A stretch of DNA of 36,436 nucleotides, from positions 1 to 36,436 of the IMG/VR virus record IMGVR_UViG_3300028800_000212. The stretch is one strand, 5' to 3'. The notes under the pieces were generated by a model. That model saw only the letters and a list, made by a program, of their open reading frames with translations, searched no databases and was not told where the DNA came from. Each line of letters starts with the position of its first letter. Position 1 is the first letter of the stretch. A program made the position numbers and the translations under genes. This document shows, piece after piece, positions 1,056 through 26,568 of the stretch. Source of the DNA: a virus.

Positions 1056-4000
1056 TCACCCCACAGTTTGATTCGAGCGCATTGGGACGAATCCTTTCTT
1101 GACCCCAACTACGCAGTTTATTCCAGAAAGAGTCAACCCCGCACCTGCAGGAATTCCGAAAAAAGGATCGTATATCTCTTGAAATGAGATTTGAAAGGAC
1201 TGACATCTTTGCCTTTGAAGTGCTACTCTCCATTGCTCCAAATTTTCTGGTCCACCATAAGGAGTACCCGAGCCATAAGTGAGATCAAGTCCATAAGCAG
1301 GAGAAAAATTAGTTGGCATAATCAAGCTTAATTGAGTCGCATTCGGATTGTAATCATACGCAATTGTTAATGCTATTTTATGAGGACTTATATATTTCCC
1401 AAGTAGATAAAAATAATAAGCTCTTTGATATCCTTGAAGACCGGCCAGCTTAATCCAAGCCGTCATAAATTTCATTTGAACTGGATTCGATCCATCTAAA
1501 TAGACCCCTGGAGTTTCCTGGAATACTTGCCCTAGGTTATTGAGATAAGCTTCCACTCCCTGATAAACTGTACTTGAAATAGCTGGGATATTTTCAAATG
1601 TTCCCCACTTGCCGTAGTAGTAATCATACATGATCTTGATTCCGCTACTCATTGTGAATCTGACTTGATTCGTTCCTGGAATATTGACTGCTGATTCTAC
1701 GGTTGCATTTTTGGTCAATCCCTGGACCGAAGCCCCGATGAACTGAGTAGAAAGATCACGACCGAGTAACCAGATCTGATTCCCTGCTTTGGACGCGAAT
1801 TCAAACATAAGACCTTGGGGTTGAAAGATGATCGATTTTTGATTGGAGCAACCCACGGTAGAAGTAATGAATTGGGGTTCAGTATACTGATTATTGGTCC
1901 CCGTGATATTCGGACCGGTGCCCGCGATGTAGTTGATCGCACTATCCTTAAAAAGAATAGCCTTATCATCCATCGCAGCACCGCACCGCAGGACACCCGT
2001 ACTGCCTTGAGCTCCTAAGTTCGGTGCCACGTAGATCGTAAGTAGGTCCGACATTTCAACGGGCGTCGCTTCCAGCACTTGCTTTGAGTACATGAGAAGA
2101 TTCTTGTCTTCTGATTTGATCCCGAAGAGCCGGTCATCAAATAAAAACACACTAGAAAAAGAAGGACCACCGATATTTTCAAGAACTCCTCCTGTTGTAT
2201 AAAGCAGGTTATTCCCCAAAATATCTGCATCAGAAAGCGTATCTACAAAATCAATGGAGTCGATTGTGGGATTATTCATGGTCGGCATAGCAATCGACGT
2301 CACCTGGTAATAACTTTGCTGAGCGAGTGACCATCGATAAACAACCAACTTCACTCCGTTGGTCACTTTATAAGTCAGTCTCAGAGTTGGAATGTGAACC
2401 GTAACAGAACTCGTAGTCCCTGTCGTAATGATAGATACCGGAATAGAAGGGGCGGACCGAAAGGCATTACCCTGATTATCAGTCCACTCATAAGTTACTG
2501 CATAAAAATAGGTGCTGGCAAGCAAATTTCCACCACTTCCAGATCCCGAAAGCTCAATGCTATCGGGATAAAGAAAAAATCCCTGCTCAACCGCTAAGAA
2601 CCCATCATAGGCCCATAAAAATCCGCCCGTGAGATTCAGATTCAGTCCAATCTCTGCATCCAGGATCTGTGTGGTGTCGAACGTGAACGTGGCAAGATTA
2701 ATCCCGAGTTGAGAATAAACTCCTGCTACCTGAGTTCCAGAGGGAACATTCGTATTCTTATTTACGGACTGGATGAGATCTTTGAATAAATAACTGACCT
2801 GTGCGGTATTGCCAATCACACTCACAGACGGAAGCGCAAAGGTGAGGTATCCTCCCGCGTTTTCATAGGCCAGTTCCGCAATGATATTTCCGACCGAACT
2901 CAACAGAAAATAAGTGCTCTGATAAGGAGATTGATACACCGTCAAAAAGTAAATCACTCCATTCATCAAGAATGCTTTCGAAGCAAGTCCCACACTTCTT
3001 TTTAGTACCGTTGATCCACTCAGCGTCCCCGATTGAGTCAAAGTCCTTTTATTAATGAAATTGGTAGGAATTCCTGAATCATACGAATACGCATTTGAGA
3101 CCTCGTAAAAAATATTCAGGATTCCTGCGTTAGCTAATGTTGTTAGATTCAAAATAGTTCCGCTCGCTATGATCTGAGTCGGTGCCAAGATCACATTGAG
3201 CTGTGGATCCCTAGCTAAACTATATCCGGTAGTTGTACCCAGATTATAGTAACTCACCCAGATCGTCGAATTCACCTGATCCGATGAAACACTGAACAGA
3301 GTTCCATGATGGGATGCATCGACCAAAACGGCACTCGATACGCTGAGATGGGAGGTAAGAAACGCCATCGACACTCCACTCGCTGAGTTCCAGGCTAGGT
3401 AGAGTGAATTATTGAAGACCGCTCCATCAAAGGCAAATGTGGTGGAAGGAACGAAATCAATTGAGATATCCGCGATAGCCGAAATATTACTCGGATTGAC
3501 GATACTGATTGCCTGGTATTGAAGGTGATAAACCCCTCCTACAATCCCGGTGAAGACAATAATAAAATAATTGCCTAAGATGAAAACTCTCGGTCCTCCA
3601 AATGAAACAACACCCGTTGCAATGAAAGTGGGCGGAATTACATTTTGTCCGGTCGTTACATCCGCTACGATATATCCATAGATGGGAATAGATAACTGTC
3701 CAGGATTCTGCTCCGTAAAGACCGTGCAGACCAATCCCGACTGACTCACAGCTGTATCACTTTGGGATTGATTGACATTATTTCTCAGTAAAGCCATGAC
3801 ATCAAGTTCAATGGGCTGCAACTCTCCCCGATTAATCCACTGTGAATAACCTTGAGATAAAGCCTGGATTTGAGTACCGACGGCCGTTAAATCTCCATTA
3901 AACGTGGTTAAAAGAGTGGATGAAGTATTCGGCAAGATCGGCAGCTGAACATTCCCATTTCTTTTCTTTAAAGCTCCCCCCTCATCAAAAACAGAATTCA

Positions 4001-5311: not shown

Positions 5312-5623
5312 TCAGAACACCTCAAGGTCAATCGTCACGTCCGTATCCGTAACGAGATTTAAAGTCAGATCAGGAGTTTGATTGGAATCCTGAGTGTCAT
5401 AAATAGATGCTTGCCCACGCTTGCGAATGATTCTCCAACCCGTGAGTTTGGCTTCGAGCTTATGACTCACCACATTCGGATTCACAGCTGATAGAAGTCT
5501 GACATTGGGCAAAATGATACTTTGTAATGAAATATTAGATAAAAATGGATTCAAAATTCCAGACCATTTAGTCTGCATCAGAGAAAGGTCCTGAATTCGA
5601 GTAAGAAAAAAAGGCAATTTCAT
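5312..5623 (-). CDS. Small podovirus tail protein of unknown function
   Basis: The preferred start is ATG at 5623, which overlaps the upstream stop as TAATG, giving 103 residues (MKLPFFLTRI...). The frame is open six codons further up, but that would lie inside the adaptor gene. The coupled stop/start is good evidence that the two are co-translated. The protein contains MQTKWSGILNPFL and a C-terminal DxTIDLEVF segment. Genes of this size and pattern often follow the adaptor in environmental podoviruses and are generally unassigned. A tail-knob or connector role is an inference from position only. Confidence 0.7.
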   Translation of the reverse strand: MKLPFFLTRIQDLSLMQTKWSGILNPFLSNISLQSIILPNVRLLSAVNPNVVSHKLEAKLTGWRIIRKRGQASIYDTQDSNQTPDLTLNLVTDTDVTIDLEVF

Positions 5624-6986: not shown

Positions 6987-7862
6987 TTAATCTCCCCCAA
7001 CCTGAATGAAGCTATTGCTCATGAAGAAGGAAAGTCCTACCACTGTGCCTGTAGCAGGTGCGGTGACTGCTCCGGAAGCATTTAAAGTCTGTAGAATCAT
7101 ATAAGATCCTGCAGCTCCGCCTAAGATGGAAGCCCCGTTATAATTAGCTCCTAAAGTCTGATTCGGATCCCCTATCACTTCGGTTGCAAATATCCCTGAG
7201 GTGGAAGCTGCTTGAACCACTCCGGTCCCCGTACCACTCCCAGTGACTGAGGCAAAGAAGGTTTCTCCTACTGCAGGAATGACTCCGACTGGCAATCCTA
7301 CCGCATTCCAATTAGCGGTCGTACTGGTTCCTACTGACACAATCACATAGGGTTGCCCGATTGTCAGGACTGAGCTTCCGCTGATACTGATATTAGAACC
7401 TGTGAGAGGAGACACGTATCCTGAAGTTCCAAAATAGTAGAAATTAAAGTTATCCTGAAACTGAACTAAAATGTATCCAGCTGCCGGATTTGGACTTCCC
7501 GCTGCGACAATACTGATTGTGACACCGCTTGCTGTACCGGTTGCCGCAGGAGTGATCGTGATTGAAGTACCTGACACAATGGATGCAATTGTAGTCCCTG
7601 CAGCAATTCCGGAACCTGAAATTTGCTGTCCCACGACTAAGCTTTGAGTGCCTCCTGAGATCCCATCCACAGTAGTTGTAGTATGAGTATTACCCACGAA
7701 TGATGCAGTGGTATGCATGAAAACATTCGCGATTCCAGCACCTTTTAGGGATCTAATTCCTTTTCCATTTTGATTCGCTGGATCGATCACGAAATTGCAA
7801 TCCATCATGACGGGTTTTTTATGCAGGGTCCCGAAAAACTGTGTGTACCATCTATTTCCCAT
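6987..7862 (-). CDS. Head decoration or virion surface protein candidate
   Basis: A 291-residue protein with ATG at 7862 preceded by AAGGAAAG. The N-terminus [13 protein letters not shown] with DCNFVIDP is a pattern seen in podovirus proteins encoded just downstream of the capsid. Residues 55-115 are a Thr/Ser/Gly-rich beta segment with Ig-like or adhesin-like composition ([19 protein letters not shown]). A second such segment spans 165-220. It follows the capsid region and opens the tail block, opposite the collagen-like genes that start about 140 bp away. Decoration is inferred from composition and location. Confidence 0.5.
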
Positions 7863-8004
7863 GACTGACTTTCCTTCTCAGTTAAAAGGGCGTCTCACTT
7901 TTCCGCCTGATTTAGGTTTCTCTTACTTATATGGAAAAACTAGCGTAGGATCGGTATTCACTCCGAGCGAACCTAATTTCATTCCCGTAAAAGGAAATAG
8001 TTCT
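7863..8004. promoter_or_regulatory. Divergent intergenic region between virion and collagen-like genes
   Basis: This 142-bp stretch separates two genes that read away from each other, so it must hold a start signal for at least the plus-strand collagen pair. I could not pick convincing -35/-10 boxes; TATATGG near 7928 is the best -10-like string. A purine-rich AAAAGGA lies 8 bases before the collagen-like start at 8005. Confidence 0.3.
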
Positions 8005-8775
8005 ATGTCTATGAACGATGATCATAAAAATTGTTCTTGTTGTCCAGGTGCCCAAGGTCCGATGGGTTCGCAAGGCGCTCAAGGTGCAGTAGGACCGCTG
8101 GGTCCCCAGGGTCCAATCGGCCCTATGGGTATTCAAGGGCCACAGGGTTCTCAAGGGGTTCCGGGTGCTCAGGGAGCTCAAGGTTTGCAAGGTAATGCCG
8201 GTGCGATGGGTGCAGTTGGCCCAGCGGGAGCTATGGGTCCAGCAGGTCCTGTAGGCCCACAAGGTCCTCAAGGGATTCCTGGCCAAGGATTTGATCCGTC
8301 TTTTTTGAGCCTTTATGCTTCAAATAGTCAAATCATCCAAGCTTTTGGAAATCCTCTTTCGACTGTTCTTTTCAATCAAGTCAGTGCAGTGGTTGCGACT
8401 TCTGATTATGATATTTCTAATGCAGCGAGCCTTGGACAGGTAGTATTTAAAAAGCATGGTTGGTATCGTCTCATGTGGGAACTCCAAGCGAATATCACTC
8501 CTCCGCTTCCATCTCCTGTTCCTTCTTGGAGTTTTGGATTTTTCCTAAACGGAGTTTTAGTACCCGGCACCGTCTATTCCGGGTTCAATGATTCTCCTGA
8601 TAATGATGCGGTCCACTCAGATAGTTCTATTATTATTGAAATCAAAGCCAATGATATTCTGACCCTGAGAAATACTTGCGTCTCATCTGTCAGTCTCAAT
8701 CCAAATGTCGGGGGAAGCGTATTTCCAATTACGATTGCCACCTTGGATGCCGAATTACTTAAATCTCTTCCCTAG
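8005..8775 (+). CDS. Collagen-like fibre protein with a C-terminal globular (C1q/TNF-like) domain
   Basis: A 256-residue protein from ATG 8005, chosen because AAAAGGA sits just upstream. The frame is open 70 codons further up, but that part would cover the divergent region and the opposite gene. The N-terminus carries CSCCPG. About 26 uninterrupted Gly-X-Y triplets follow (residues 15-93), rich in GPQ, GAQ and GPM. The last 155 residues look like a compact beta domain with aromatic-rich strands ([28 protein letters not shown]), similar to the C1q/TNF-like heads of bacterial and phage collagen proteins. A trimeric fibre exposed on the virion is likely. Strand and composition differ from the neighbours, which suggests separate acquisition. 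Confidence 0.8.
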
Positions 8776-8794
8776 TCCATGAAAGGAACTATTT

Positions 8795-9319
8795 ATGGCT
8801 AGCATGAATTGTTGCCCAGGTCCTCAAGGGCCCATGGGATCTCAAGGGCCATTGGGCCCCAGAGGACCGCTAGGTGCCCAAGGTCCTTTGGGCATCCAAG
8901 GGATTCAAGGGCCACCCGGTCCAACAGGGCCTGTGGGACCCCAAGGCGCTCAAGGACTTGCCGGTCCAACGGGTGCTCTGGGTCCTATCGGCTTTACGGG
9001 ACCTCAGGGCCCGCAAGGAGCCCCAGGGATCCAGGGAGATCGAGGTCAGGTGGGACCCCAAGGCGCTCAAGGACCGATCGGTCTGACCGGCTCTGCTGGT
9101 GCAGTCGGTCCCCAAGGTGCCCAGGGAATTACGGGAGTTCAGGGACCTATAGGTCCTATGGGTCCTCAAGGCATTCCTGGTCCTCTGGGAGGGATTCCCA
9201 TCTTCACTCTAGATCCCGCGGATCAAAATATATTGGTCTGGATTTTATTTACGGCACCTTCAAGTGGAGTTCTTAAGTTTAGAAGTCCAATTGATGGTAG
9301 TCTTATCGTCGTCACTTAA
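8795..9319 (+). CDS. Second collagen-like protein, short C-terminal tail
   Basis: A 174-residue protein starting 19 bases after the first collagen-like gene stops, with GAAAGGAAC as ribosome site, so the two form a small operon. The start [18 protein letters not shown] mirrors the CCPG entry of its neighbour. Gly-X-Y triplets run from about residue 8 to 128. The C-terminal 45 residues ([15 protein letters not shown]...[10 protein letters not shown]) are short and beta-prone, much smaller than the head of the first protein. It may be a co-assembling partner chain or a duplicate that lost its head domain. The shared Cys-Cys-Pro-Gly entry could crosslink trimers. Confidence 0.8.
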
Positions 9320-20079: not shown

Positions 20080-20353
20080 GACTTTCCTTTTCTTGCTTAA
20101 TTTTTTCTTCTTGAAGCTTATTCTCGCGGACTTTATTTTCGATCAAAGGTTCAGGTTCTTTTTTAAGTTTGAGACAAACCAGCCAATAATCCAAGAAGAA
20201 TTTTGGAATGTAAGCCCACTTAAGAAAGGACCGATACATCTGCATCATTTGGTGAAGGGATTTGACTTTTGAATCTTTTTTGATATCAAACTCGAGTTTC
20301 ACATCCCAAGCAAGCGTCTGGTAACTATTTTCTATGAACTTAAAGAACTTCAT
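20021..20353 (-). CDS. 110-residue helical protein with charged tail
   Basis: Residues 1-65 are basic and rich in aromatic residues (FFKFIENSYQTLAWDVKLEF, MYRSFLKWAYIPKFFLDYWLVCL). Residues 68-110 are a Lys/Glu coiled coil (KVRENKLQEEKIKQEKESLEK). No membrane signal is convincing, although FFLDYWLVCL is hydrophobic. The stop overlaps the downstream HTH gene by 59 bases. I recognise no family. Confidence 0.55.
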   Translation of the reverse strand: MKFFKFIENSYQTLAWDVKLEFDIKKDSKVKSLHQMMQMYRSFLKWAYIPKFFLDYWLVCLKLKKEPEPLIENKVRENKLQEEKIKQEKESLEKEPRVSSTESEVVPEIS

Positions 20354-20565
20354 GAAGCCGTTCCATCCCGTACCGGATGAAGAGGATCCTCCTCCACTTT
20401 GAGAGCAACTTCTTTGGTCAAATCCATCATTTTTTGGTGAATGGATGCTATTTCCGCTTCTAAGAGGAGTATCCTAAACCTCTTATCGCCCGCATAGGTT
20501 GCGCACTTTGAATACTCTTCGTTAATTTGCTCTTGAGTTCTACTCGGTATCGTCGTCTGTTCCAT
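20350..20565 (-). CDS. 71-residue helical protein
   Basis: A short acidic protein overlapping its neighbours on both sides (4 and 26 bases), as expected in a packed phage operon. Residues 30-60 form a charged helix (RILLLEAEIASIHQKMMDLTKEVALKV). No family was recognised. The tight overlaps and the open frame across an unbiased stretch are the main evidence. Confidence 0.55.
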   Translation of the reverse strand: MEQTTIPSRTQEQINEEYSKCATYAGDKRFRILLLEAEIASIHQKMMDLTKEVALKVEEDPLHPVRDGTAS

Positions 20566-23666: not shown

Positions 23667-23786
23667 GATTCCCCCCCCCCTTCACACAGTCTTTCCATTA
23701 AATGAAATGAATCGTTGACGCTAGTGATAAAGATGATTTAGAGATGGAAGTCGGAAAACAAACAGTAAAAATGAGAAGCATAAGAG

Positions 23787-23830
23787 AGCCTTGAAATGGA
23801 CCCCGCCGTCTGATTCAAGGCTTTTTTTTT
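23787..23830 (+). terminator. Plus-strand terminator with no plus-strand gene before it
   Basis: AGCCTTGAA (23787-23795) and TTCAAGGCT (23814-23822) make a 9-bp perfect stem followed by nine T on the plus strand. The U-run overlaps the stop of a minus-strand gene. The 120 bases before it hold no plus-strand gene beyond a 16-codon frame near 23744, but they include TTGACG at about 23713. This suggests a small RNA of about 90 nt, or antisense termination. Confidence 0.65.
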
Positions 23831-24164
23831 AGACCATGAATACGTCAGGCATAGGAATCTTTTCCTTTGCGGGCCTCCAGAGATGAAGTACGTGGGGATG
23901 TGCATTCACATAAGAACTTTTAGGCGGATGATATTGGATGACGCAGTCTTCCTGATCCCAGAATAGATCCTTCACCTCACACATATCATCCCAGGTGGGG
24001 GGCTCATAACGCTTACTGACTGCCACATGCTCCCAACCTAATCCTGATGACGCAATCACTCTGAGTGTGTATTTTTGTTTGATGATCTGAAAGCATCCGT
24101 TTAGTCCGTCGGAGGGACTGAACTGAGTGAGATCTCTGAATTTCTCTGGTACCTTGAAAGCCAT
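23829..24164 (-). CDS. DUF7694-like phage protein
   Basis: A 111-residue protein with the conserved stretch GWEHVAVSKRYEPPTWDD, MCEVKDLFWDQEDCVIQYHP and VNAHPHVLHLWRP. This matches, in order and spacing, the DUF7694 domain found in many phages. Its function is unknown. It stands alone after the 720-bp non-coding region, so it may have its own promoter there. Confidence 0.75.
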   Translation of the reverse strand: MAFKVPEKFRDLTQFSPSDGLNGCFQIIKQKYTLRVIASSGLGWEHVAVSKRYEPPTWDDMCEVKDLFWDQEDCVIQYHPPKSSYVNAHPHVLHLWRPAKEKIPMPDVFMV

Positions 24165-24637
24165 AAATTCGTTATCCTTTTTTTTTAGGCAATACTCTAC
24201 TATCCCCTACCTACCCGATTTGGAGATTGAGTGCATGAATATACATGCTTGGTAGCTATTGCCAGTCCTTGAACCTCGACTAGCCTCGGGGAAGTTGCTA
24301 AACCTTCCAAAAATCCTCCCAAAATATCCAGCGTCCCGGATGCTGTGAGTGGGCTTGTGAAAAGCTTAGTAAGACCCCCGAAGCGACTTTCGCCTCAGTG
24401 GACCCACTTATGCGTTTGATCATCCCAAAAAGCCGCCAGACCATTCTAGCCCCGTGACCACCGCTTGAGCATCCTGCTGGCGTATGACCGGTCGTTTAAG
24501 TGAGAGGAGGCACCTAGCCCGTTCTTCTCCCACAAGCTTGAACACTTTTTAGGTAATCGCGGGCCGTTTCCAGTCCGGTAAATCCTTTTGCCTGGTTTAC
24601 GAGTGAGGCTGAACTATCCTCGGACTAAAACTTTTAT

Positions 24638-24665
24638 TTGACTTGGTGGTGGGGAGTGTTATGCT
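24638..24665 (+). promoter_or_regulatory. Promoter-like boxes inside the long hairpin
   Basis: TTGACT (24638-24643), 16 bases, then TATGCT (24660-24665) preceded by an extended -10 TG. A transcript from here would be about 85 nt and end at the terminator at 24756. The boxes lie in the arms and loop of the two-part hairpin, so this may be coincidence or a second, shorter RNA. Confidence 0.4.
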
Positions 24666-24707
24666 CTGCGTCACCAAGTATATGTTTTAGTCGATGTTAT
24701 ACTTAGC

Positions 24708-24756
24708 ACCCCTGGTCAAGAGAGTTCAACACTCTTTTTACGAGGGGTTTTTTTTT
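24708..24756 (+). terminator. Rho-independent terminator of the structured RNA
   Basis: ACCCCT (24708-24713) pairs with AGGGGT (24743-24748), GT with AC inside it, and AAGAG (24718-24722) with CTCTT (24732-24736). Nine T follow on the plus strand. The minus strand has no T-run here. Confidence 0.9.
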
Positions 24757-24803
24757 ATCCTTTTATCCCTACCCTTATCTGAAATTCCCTATAGAATGGT
24801 AAC

Positions 24804-24872
24804 CTGTTCGCCCAAGGAACAGCACTACTAGGGGATCCTTAGGCTTTCACCTGGAAGAAATCTTAAGGATCC
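24804..24872. other. Two further inverted repeats downstream of the RNA
   Basis: CTGTTC 24804/GAACAG 24817 and GGATCCTTA 24833/TAAGGATCC 24864 (22-base loop) are perfect. Neither has a T-run. They lie between the RNA terminator and the stop of the minus-strand gene at 24885 and may be processing or binding sites, or a leader hairpin for transcripts crossing the gap. Confidence 0.55.
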
Positions 24873-24884
24873 TTTACGAATGAA

Positions 24885-25226
24885 TCAAATTGTTAAAATT
24901 TCTACTAGATGCTGAACTGCCTCGGCATGTTGAATGAGAGCCTCTTTATAAGTGGAGCATCTTTCCTGATACTCATCGTTCTCAATTCCAAAAATCATCG
25001 TTTCAAATAAGAGGGGATCCCCTTTAAGTTCTAATCTATGATCAACACCTAAAAATACGGTGGAAATAAATATTTTCCTGTCATCGTTAAACAGAACCGT
25101 TTTTAATATATCTCTTTTTTCCCATTCCATTTCATGTATATTCTTCACGGAAACTGGATTTTTATTTTCATCCAGTTTATAATATAACTTTAGCTCATAT
25201 ATATTTGGGGATTTTAAATCATCCAT
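24885..25226 (-). CDS. Conserved small phage protein
   Basis: A 113-residue acidic protein. The middle (FISTVFLGVDHRLELKGDPLLFETMIFGIEND, in parts) and the end YKEALIQHAEAVQHL follow a pattern seen in many small phage proteins: TVFLGxDHxF...PxLFETMxFG...EAxxGH. The function is unknown. The 8-base overlap with the gene upstream supports co-translation. Confidence 0.75.
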   Translation of the reverse strand: MDDLKSPNIYELKLYYKLDENKNPVSVKNIHEMEWEKRDILKTVLFNDDRKIFISTVFLGVDHRLELKGDPLLFETMIFGIENDEYQERCSTYKEALIQHAEAVQHLVEILTI

Positions 25227-26269: not shown

Positions 26270-26276
26270 GACTAGC

Positions 26277-26305
26277 TTTGTATGATTTTCTCATACAATT
26301 GTCAA
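26277..26305 (-). promoter_or_regulatory. Promoter of the minus-strand early operon
   Basis: Read on the minus strand: TTGACA (26305-26300), a 17-base spacer, then TACAAA (26282-26277). The -35 box is a perfect consensus. The ATG at 26269 is 8 bases beyond the -10 box. The promoter overlaps the TTGTATGA/TCATACAA palindrome, so binding there would block transcription. Confidence 0.7.
26278..26298. promoter_or_regulatory. Operator palindrome TTGTATGA-5-TCATACAA
   Basis: Two 8-base half-sites in perfect inverted order, 5 bases apart. Single half-sites recur at 26323-26330, 26346-26353 and 26359-26364, and at 11765 and 11777 by the lipoprotein gene. This pattern is what a dimeric repressor controlling divergent promoters would leave. 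Confidence 0.7.
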
Positions 26306-26336
26306 CATAACTTTATAAACATTCATACAATTATGC

Positions 26337-26365
26337 TTGTCTTTCTCATACAACACAGTCATACT
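26337..26365 (+). promoter_or_regulatory. Promoter of the plus-strand three-gene island
   Basis: TTGTCT (26337-26342), 17 bases, CATACT (26360-26365), with TCATACAA in the spacer and TCATAC over the -10 box. It aligns closely with 11756-11783: TTGnCTTTyTCATACAA, then GTCATACT. Transcription would begin near 26372, and a good ribosome site (AGAGGTG) follows. Confidence 0.55.
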
Positions 26366-26388
26366 TAAATCATAAGAAGAGGTGACCT

Positions 26389-26568
26389 ATGGTAATCAAT
26401 TTCGCAGGAATAGCCCTAGATATCGTAAGCGTAACTTTCATGAGTGACGATCATATTATAGTGGTTTATCGGTCTCATACGGATAAACAAGAACTGAGAT
26501 CCACATCCATTTGTCAGCTCGAATTTGAAATGCTTTGTACCAAAAAGGAGGCAAAACTTCATGTCTAA
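26389..26568 (+). CDS. 59-residue protein, first of the plus-strand island
   Basis: ATG at 26389 follows AGAGGTGA by five bases, and the TAA at 26566-26568 overlaps the next start by 8 bases. The protein begins MVINFAGIALDIVSVTF with a hydrophobic stretch and ends in a basic TKKEAKLHV. It may be a small membrane-associated or regulatory protein. No family was recognised. Confidence 0.65.
   Translation: MVINFAGIALDIVSVTFMSDDHIIVVYRSHTDKQELRSTSICQLEFEMLCTKKEAKLHV

Follow-up and report, generated by a model that had tools for sequence, protein, structure and literature searches.

A conserved structured RNA, probably noncoding, on the minus strand of a phage early operon, with homologues in two further phage genomes

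New large RNA families are rare. Large noncoding RNA families of phages are few, and those described in PMC12286853 have no established function. ROOL and GOLLD, phage RNAs without a known function, form RNA-only cages: ROOL assembles into an RNA-only nanocage, and GOLLD is often found near tRNA genes, with members that often exceed 800 nt (PMC12286853). An unrelated further case that pairs a defined core model with strong covariation, and that has a terminator conserved on the antisense strand, would offer an independent handle on the role of such RNAs. In the ColE1 layout, a terminator on the antisense strand sits by the 5′ end of a structured RNA, RNAII, which is about 0.5 kb long.

The window analysed here is the whole 36.4-kb stretch of IMG/VR virus record IMGVR_UViG_3300028800_000212, which encodes a large terminase, a portal protein and an ERF-like gene and carries its genes predominantly on the minus strand. 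Elsewhere in the window, positions 26270–26389 form a divergent regulatory region between the minus-strand early operon and small plus-strand genes, in which several TCATACAA-like repeats resemble operators, and two collagen-like repeat proteins are encoded on the plus strand (7795–9319) among minus-strand structural genes.

The intergenic gap and its homologues

The initial annotation had drawn attention to a 720-bp gap in this genome, and the gap was borne out: positions 24165–24884, flanked by two minus-strand genes, contain no ORF of ≥60 aa on either strand, and stops interrupt all six reading frames. The features of this region are as follows.

24885–25226, minus strand: 113-aa gene that precedes the RNA within the operon
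24188–24643, minus strand: structured noncoding RNA of about 450 nt, supported by homologues and RNAalifold
23829–24164, minus strand: DUF7694 gene (Pfam DUF7694, E 4.7e-27), which immediately follows the RNA in the window

The DUF7694 protein corresponds to PHROG 7839, with relatives in at least 85 viral contigs and in several Pseudomonas aeruginosa phages.

Alignment of the terminase gathered about 40 phage contigs (terminase identity 63–71%), one of which, IMGVR_UViG_3300037316_000083 (hereafter L103), belongs to the same phage family as the window and has a copy of the element, detected by nhmmer at E 1.4e-26 and 70% identical over the best blastn piece. A covariance model, R1, was built from the minus-strand core and applied to 47 contigs sharing the 17-base motif AAGTGTTCAAGCTNGTG; it singled out one of them, IMGVR_UViG_3300034965_000059 (hereafter L261), at 114.6 bits and E 2.6e-29. 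RNA identity among window, L103 and L261 is 64–67%. When the window proteins were compared with the L261 phage by tblastn, the only matches were a methyltransferase and one small early protein, and no similarity to the head genes of the window was found. Sequence comparison indicates that the structured RNA is common to at least three phage genomes.

A close relative whose record is near-complete and whose major capsid protein is 79% identical lacks the element; neither nucleotide search nor covariance model found it in the other same-family phages searched, and phage and plasmid records contained no near copies. Nor was there a copy in 1,516 bacterial genomes sampled from five phyla, in searches whose stricter filters may miss weak copies, or in 14 other bacterial genomes. 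Diverged copies also escape the scans of the viral collection, because those scans required exact short patterns. Two apparent homologues were rejected: a match in Veterinaerplatzvirus, which failed the covariance model, and a pattern match, L238, which was a 21-base match by chance.

Searched against Rfam 15, the gap returned nothing at gathering scores or at E ≤5, and only two weak, unrelated matches at E ≤10. The covariance models of ROOL and GOLLD gave no match in the window at E ≤5–10, nor in L103, which leaves membership of either family—raised as a comparison in the initial annotation—unsupported, and the window holds no tRNA genes. The RNA appears to be previously undescribed and to lie outside the Rfam 15 families; no description of the element was found in the open-access literature.

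Conservation of the element is not that of a coding sequence, because the substitutions in the most conserved 75 bases of L103 are spread over the three codon positions (4, 4 and 6). With this flat pattern, and with no long ORF in the window, a protein-coding explanation of the gap was rejected. L103 does have a 96-aa ORF on the minus strand (2776–3066), with a zinc-finger-like CxxC...CxxxC pattern and weak matches to Pfam NinG (E 0.0039) and to a PHROG HNH family (phrog_1271, E 0.005), which overlaps the RNA core and an insert specific to L103, running from the insert into domain A. It was rejected as a conserved gene, as its aligned bases lack a codon pattern and no long ORF in the window matches it.

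Strand and fold of the RNA

Three tests place a conserved structured RNA with covarying pairs on the minus strand of the gap. Folded as a single sequence, the plus strand reached z −2.17 with the terminator included (20 shuffles) and z −1.63 without it, eight of 120 shuffles being equally good, so the plus-strand fold first proposed is barely above chance. The minus strand reached z −3.21 and −3.74, and three control stretches from neighbouring genes lay between −0.05 and −1.24. For RNAalifold we aligned the three sequences (64–67% identity, excluding an insert of about 170 bases in L103) and obtained −88.3 kcal/mol on the minus strand versus −45.0 for shuffled columns (z −9.2), and z −3.2 on the plus strand; a second shuffle set gave −9.5 and −3.8, respectively. 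As a positive control, nine RNase P RNA triples of similar identity were run the same way: their true strands yielded z −7.7 to −14.3, values comparable to that of the element on the minus strand, and outscored the opposite strands in eight of the nine.

The core alignment contains 41 pairs, standard in 98.4% of cells. Changes on both sides were seen in 14 of these pairs (against a mean of 4.9 after shuffling; none of 500 shuffles reached 14), a count that is biased upward because the alignment was fitted to the structure of the model; when the core partners were slid by 1–3 columns, pairing fell to 36–50%. Sequence-only alignments were used for the RNAalifold test and for a cross-check, in which a structure predicted from one sequence alone was then tested in the other. 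For the core on the minus strand, 62% of changed pairs were kept from window to L103 (p < 0.0002 under null A, 0.007 under null B) and 59% in the reverse direction (p 0.001 under null A, 0.02 under null B). The plus strand was also above chance from window to L103, but at chance from L103 to window. Covariation beyond chance among these homologues, just three sequences in all, supports a conserved structured RNA and bears out the expectation that relatives would show conservation and covariation.

Five G.U pairs are invariant in all three sequences (alignment columns 11–152, 22–140, 47–62, 83–115 and 123–133), and they would be C.A on the plus strand, so they are present on the minus strand only. 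A functional RNA on the plus strand, ending at a plus-strand terminator kept at that end in all three loci, would agree with a right-hand hairpin (24626–24692) that fits the plus strand better. Against it stand the RNAalifold scores, the five G.U pairs and a fold of domains A and B that is about 30 kcal/mol weaker on the plus strand in both window and L103, and we consider it quite improbable. The proposal of a large structured phage RNA, probably of a new class, therefore stands, but its placement on the plus strand gives way to the minus strand. Terminator placement alone can mislead strand calls; here, conserved G.U pairs pointed the opposite way.

On this strand, the 5′ end of the RNA probably lies near 24643, where homology starts in all three loci, and the modelled long-range closing helix would place the 3′ end near 24188. 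The three homologues share a two-domain fold, and L103 has its insert of about 170 nt between the 5′ part and domain A.

24590–24624, minus strand: 5′ hairpin GCCU-CACUCGUAAACC-AGGC (hairpin at 24609–24590), from the three-locus alignment
24401–24565, minus strand: domain A, with 14 both-sided pair changes and 98.4% standard pairs
24565–24544 with 24433–24401, minus strand: P1, closing stem of domain A, from consensus helices
24533–24500, minus strand: P2 hairpin of domain A, from consensus helices
24491–24452, minus strand: P3 hairpin of domain A, from consensus helices
24450–24435, minus strand: P4 hairpin of domain A, from consensus helices
24188–24394, minus strand: domain B, from consensus helices and the alignment
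24394–24385 with 24197–24188, minus strand: long-range closing helix of domain B, from consensus helices
24384–24283, minus strand: P5 hairpin inside the domain B closing helix, from consensus helices

The loop of the 5′ hairpin, CUCG, is nearly invariant across the three loci and may pair with an upstream CGAG as a pseudoknot, the putative pairs of which do not vary among them. Domain A carries an invariant joiner, GUUCAAGCU, and the closing helix of domain B also encloses a conserved GUAGGGGAU(A)GUA tail. Several of the stems listed in the initial annotation are not borne out by this consensus; its three-level domain at 24188–24263, closed by GGCAATA/TATTGCC, is not kept in the homologues, and 24188–24197 pairs with 24385–24394.

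Genomic setting and antisense-strand features

In the window, the RNA reads with the early operon, not against it as had been supposed: it follows the 113-aa gene, and about 24 bases separate its end from the start codon of DUF7694, which shares its strand. In L103 it lies opposite to the operon, upstream of the first early gene and facing away from that gene; it points toward a convergent gene and leads into none. The L261 copy, flanked by HNH-type genes, is co-directional with the operon, has an HNH-like gene on one side and a homologue of the gene at window 20350–20565 on the other, and ends about 66 bases ahead of a co-directional gene. Neither L103 nor L261 has DUF7694 as the gene downstream of the RNA. 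Because flanking genes and orientation to the operon differ across the three loci, the element appears to behave as a transferable RNA gene and not as the leader of one gene.

These settings bear directly on a cis-acting role, in which the RNA would be a long 5′ untranslated region controlling the next gene (DUF7694 in the window). The close, same-strand spacing in window and L261 is what such a leader would have, yet the downstream genes are unrelated, the L103 copy runs toward a convergent gene, and neither blastn nor covariance model found the RNA next to the DUF7694 homologues of about 80 other viral contigs; we regard a leader as improbable. Since no sense-strand terminator was found for the RNA in the window or L261, and the next gene is only about 24 or 66 bases away, the RNA may stay joined to the mRNA unless processed, which counts against an autonomous RNA. 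In L103, a minus-strand T8 terminator at 2452–2485 (G002 coordinates 5537–5582) lies where the RNA would enter the convergent upstream gene and could end the RNA there.

The HNH-type genes around the L261 copy, the overlapping L103 ORF with its weak match to phrog_1271 and the presence of P7-like GAC[C/U]/[G/A]GUC segments among possible helices also bring to mind a degenerate or unusual self-splicing intron, or another mobile ribozyme, moved by HNH endonucleases. Against this, neither group I nor group II introns gave an Rfam match even at E ≤10, and no gene is split at any of the three sites, where the flanking genes are complete and differ between loci; such an origin seems very improbable indeed. 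A group I intron in particular was rejected: P7-like segments are present, yet there is no model match and there are no exons.

Three features are placed on the plus strand, at the 5′ side of the element.

24705–24756, plus strand (antisense): intrinsic terminator, hairpin and T9, just upstream of the RNA 5′ end
24626–24692, plus strand: hairpin present in window and L103 and missing from L261, whose pairing favours the plus strand
24638–24665, plus strand: weak promoter-like site TTGACT-16-TATGCT with extended TG, a possible antisense start

The strong terminator ending at 24756 is real—its stem of −22.0 kcal/mol, followed by T9, is the strongest in the window—but it does not close the RNA at its 3′ end, as first proposed. 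L103 and L261 have counterparts in the equivalent position; in every case the terminator is antisense to the RNA and just upstream of its 5′ end, and the pairs fit the antisense strand in all three loci (stem energies on the antisense and sense strands, in kcal/mol: window −22.0 and −17.5; L103 −20.0 and −9.9; L261 −16.8 and −7.6). Immediately beyond the 3′ end of the DUF7694 gene is a second strong plus-strand terminator (23784–23830; −19.2 kcal/mol, T9); plus-strand terminators thereby bracket this gene and the RNA within a minus-strand operon. The hairpin, originally placed at 24623–24692, recurs in L103 with paired changes and is missing from L261; with a local z of −4.0 and a p of about 0.04 in the L103-to-window test, both on the plus strand, it is the exception among the strand tests.

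No antisense-reading gene lies beside the element in the window or L261, and because of this a transcript starting inside the element would be the simplest reason for the conservation of the terminator. Such a transcript is central to an antisense-controlled RNA like ColE1 RNAII/RNAI or CopT/CopA, in which the minus-strand RNA would serve as target or primer and be controlled by a short plus-strand RNA that ends at 24756 and pairs with the 5′ part of the minus-strand RNA. The case rests on the conserved terminator beside the RNA 5′ end, joined by the weak promoter-like site of the window and its L103 counterpart (TTGACT...TATCCT); it is weakened by L261, where no such site was found, by promoter scans in which the number of these sites is near chance, and by an origin or primer role that is putative. 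We treat it as a tentative possibility.

Interpretation and comparison with known systems

The reading we prefer, by analogy and with moderate confidence, is an autonomous minus-strand phage noncoding-RNA gene of about 450 nt, carried as accessory cargo and acting in trans as a structural RNA. It occurs in different phages, at varied places in the early or recombination region, and runs with the operon or against it. The RNA would be produced early in infection, fold into two multi-helix domains and serve as a stable structural RNA, either as a self-assembled particle or as a scaffold for phage or host proteins, as for ROOL and GOLLD, and the conserved terminator at its 5′ flank would stop opposite-direction transcription from crossing the element. 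We infer that the RNA is transcribed, with the ends given above, that it acts in trans and that its role is structural. A trans-acting structural RNA is favoured because three different downstream situations make a leader of one gene unlikely; the conserved antisense terminator, which an autonomous trans-acting RNA does not require, counts against the model, as the plus-leaning hairpin at 24626–24692 counts against a minus-strand RNA. More speculatively, and in our view rather unlikely, this may be a new large phage RNA class built as a sense/antisense unit, a self-contained cassette moving between phage lineages, in which the level or folding of the RNA of roughly 450 nt would be set by a short antisense transcript whose end lies at the conserved terminator of that strand.

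Like ROOL, which is roughly 0.5–0.65 kb long (PMC12286853), the RNA is phage-encoded, elaborately folded and noncoding; unlike ROOL, which often lies near tRNA islands, it has no tRNA genes nearby and no Rfam model match. With GOLLD it shares a phage-encoded large RNA in which a better conserved part is accompanied by a variable linker (the insert in L103), but it is shorter and again has neither an Rfam model match nor a tRNA gene in the window. The analogy to both covers setting and elaborateness only. ColE1 RNAII/RNAI differs in having no sequence match to the element, whose antisense RNA, primer and origin are putative; the likeness lies in the layout, in which the 5′ end of a structured RNA about 0.5 kb long has a terminator beside it on the antisense strand.
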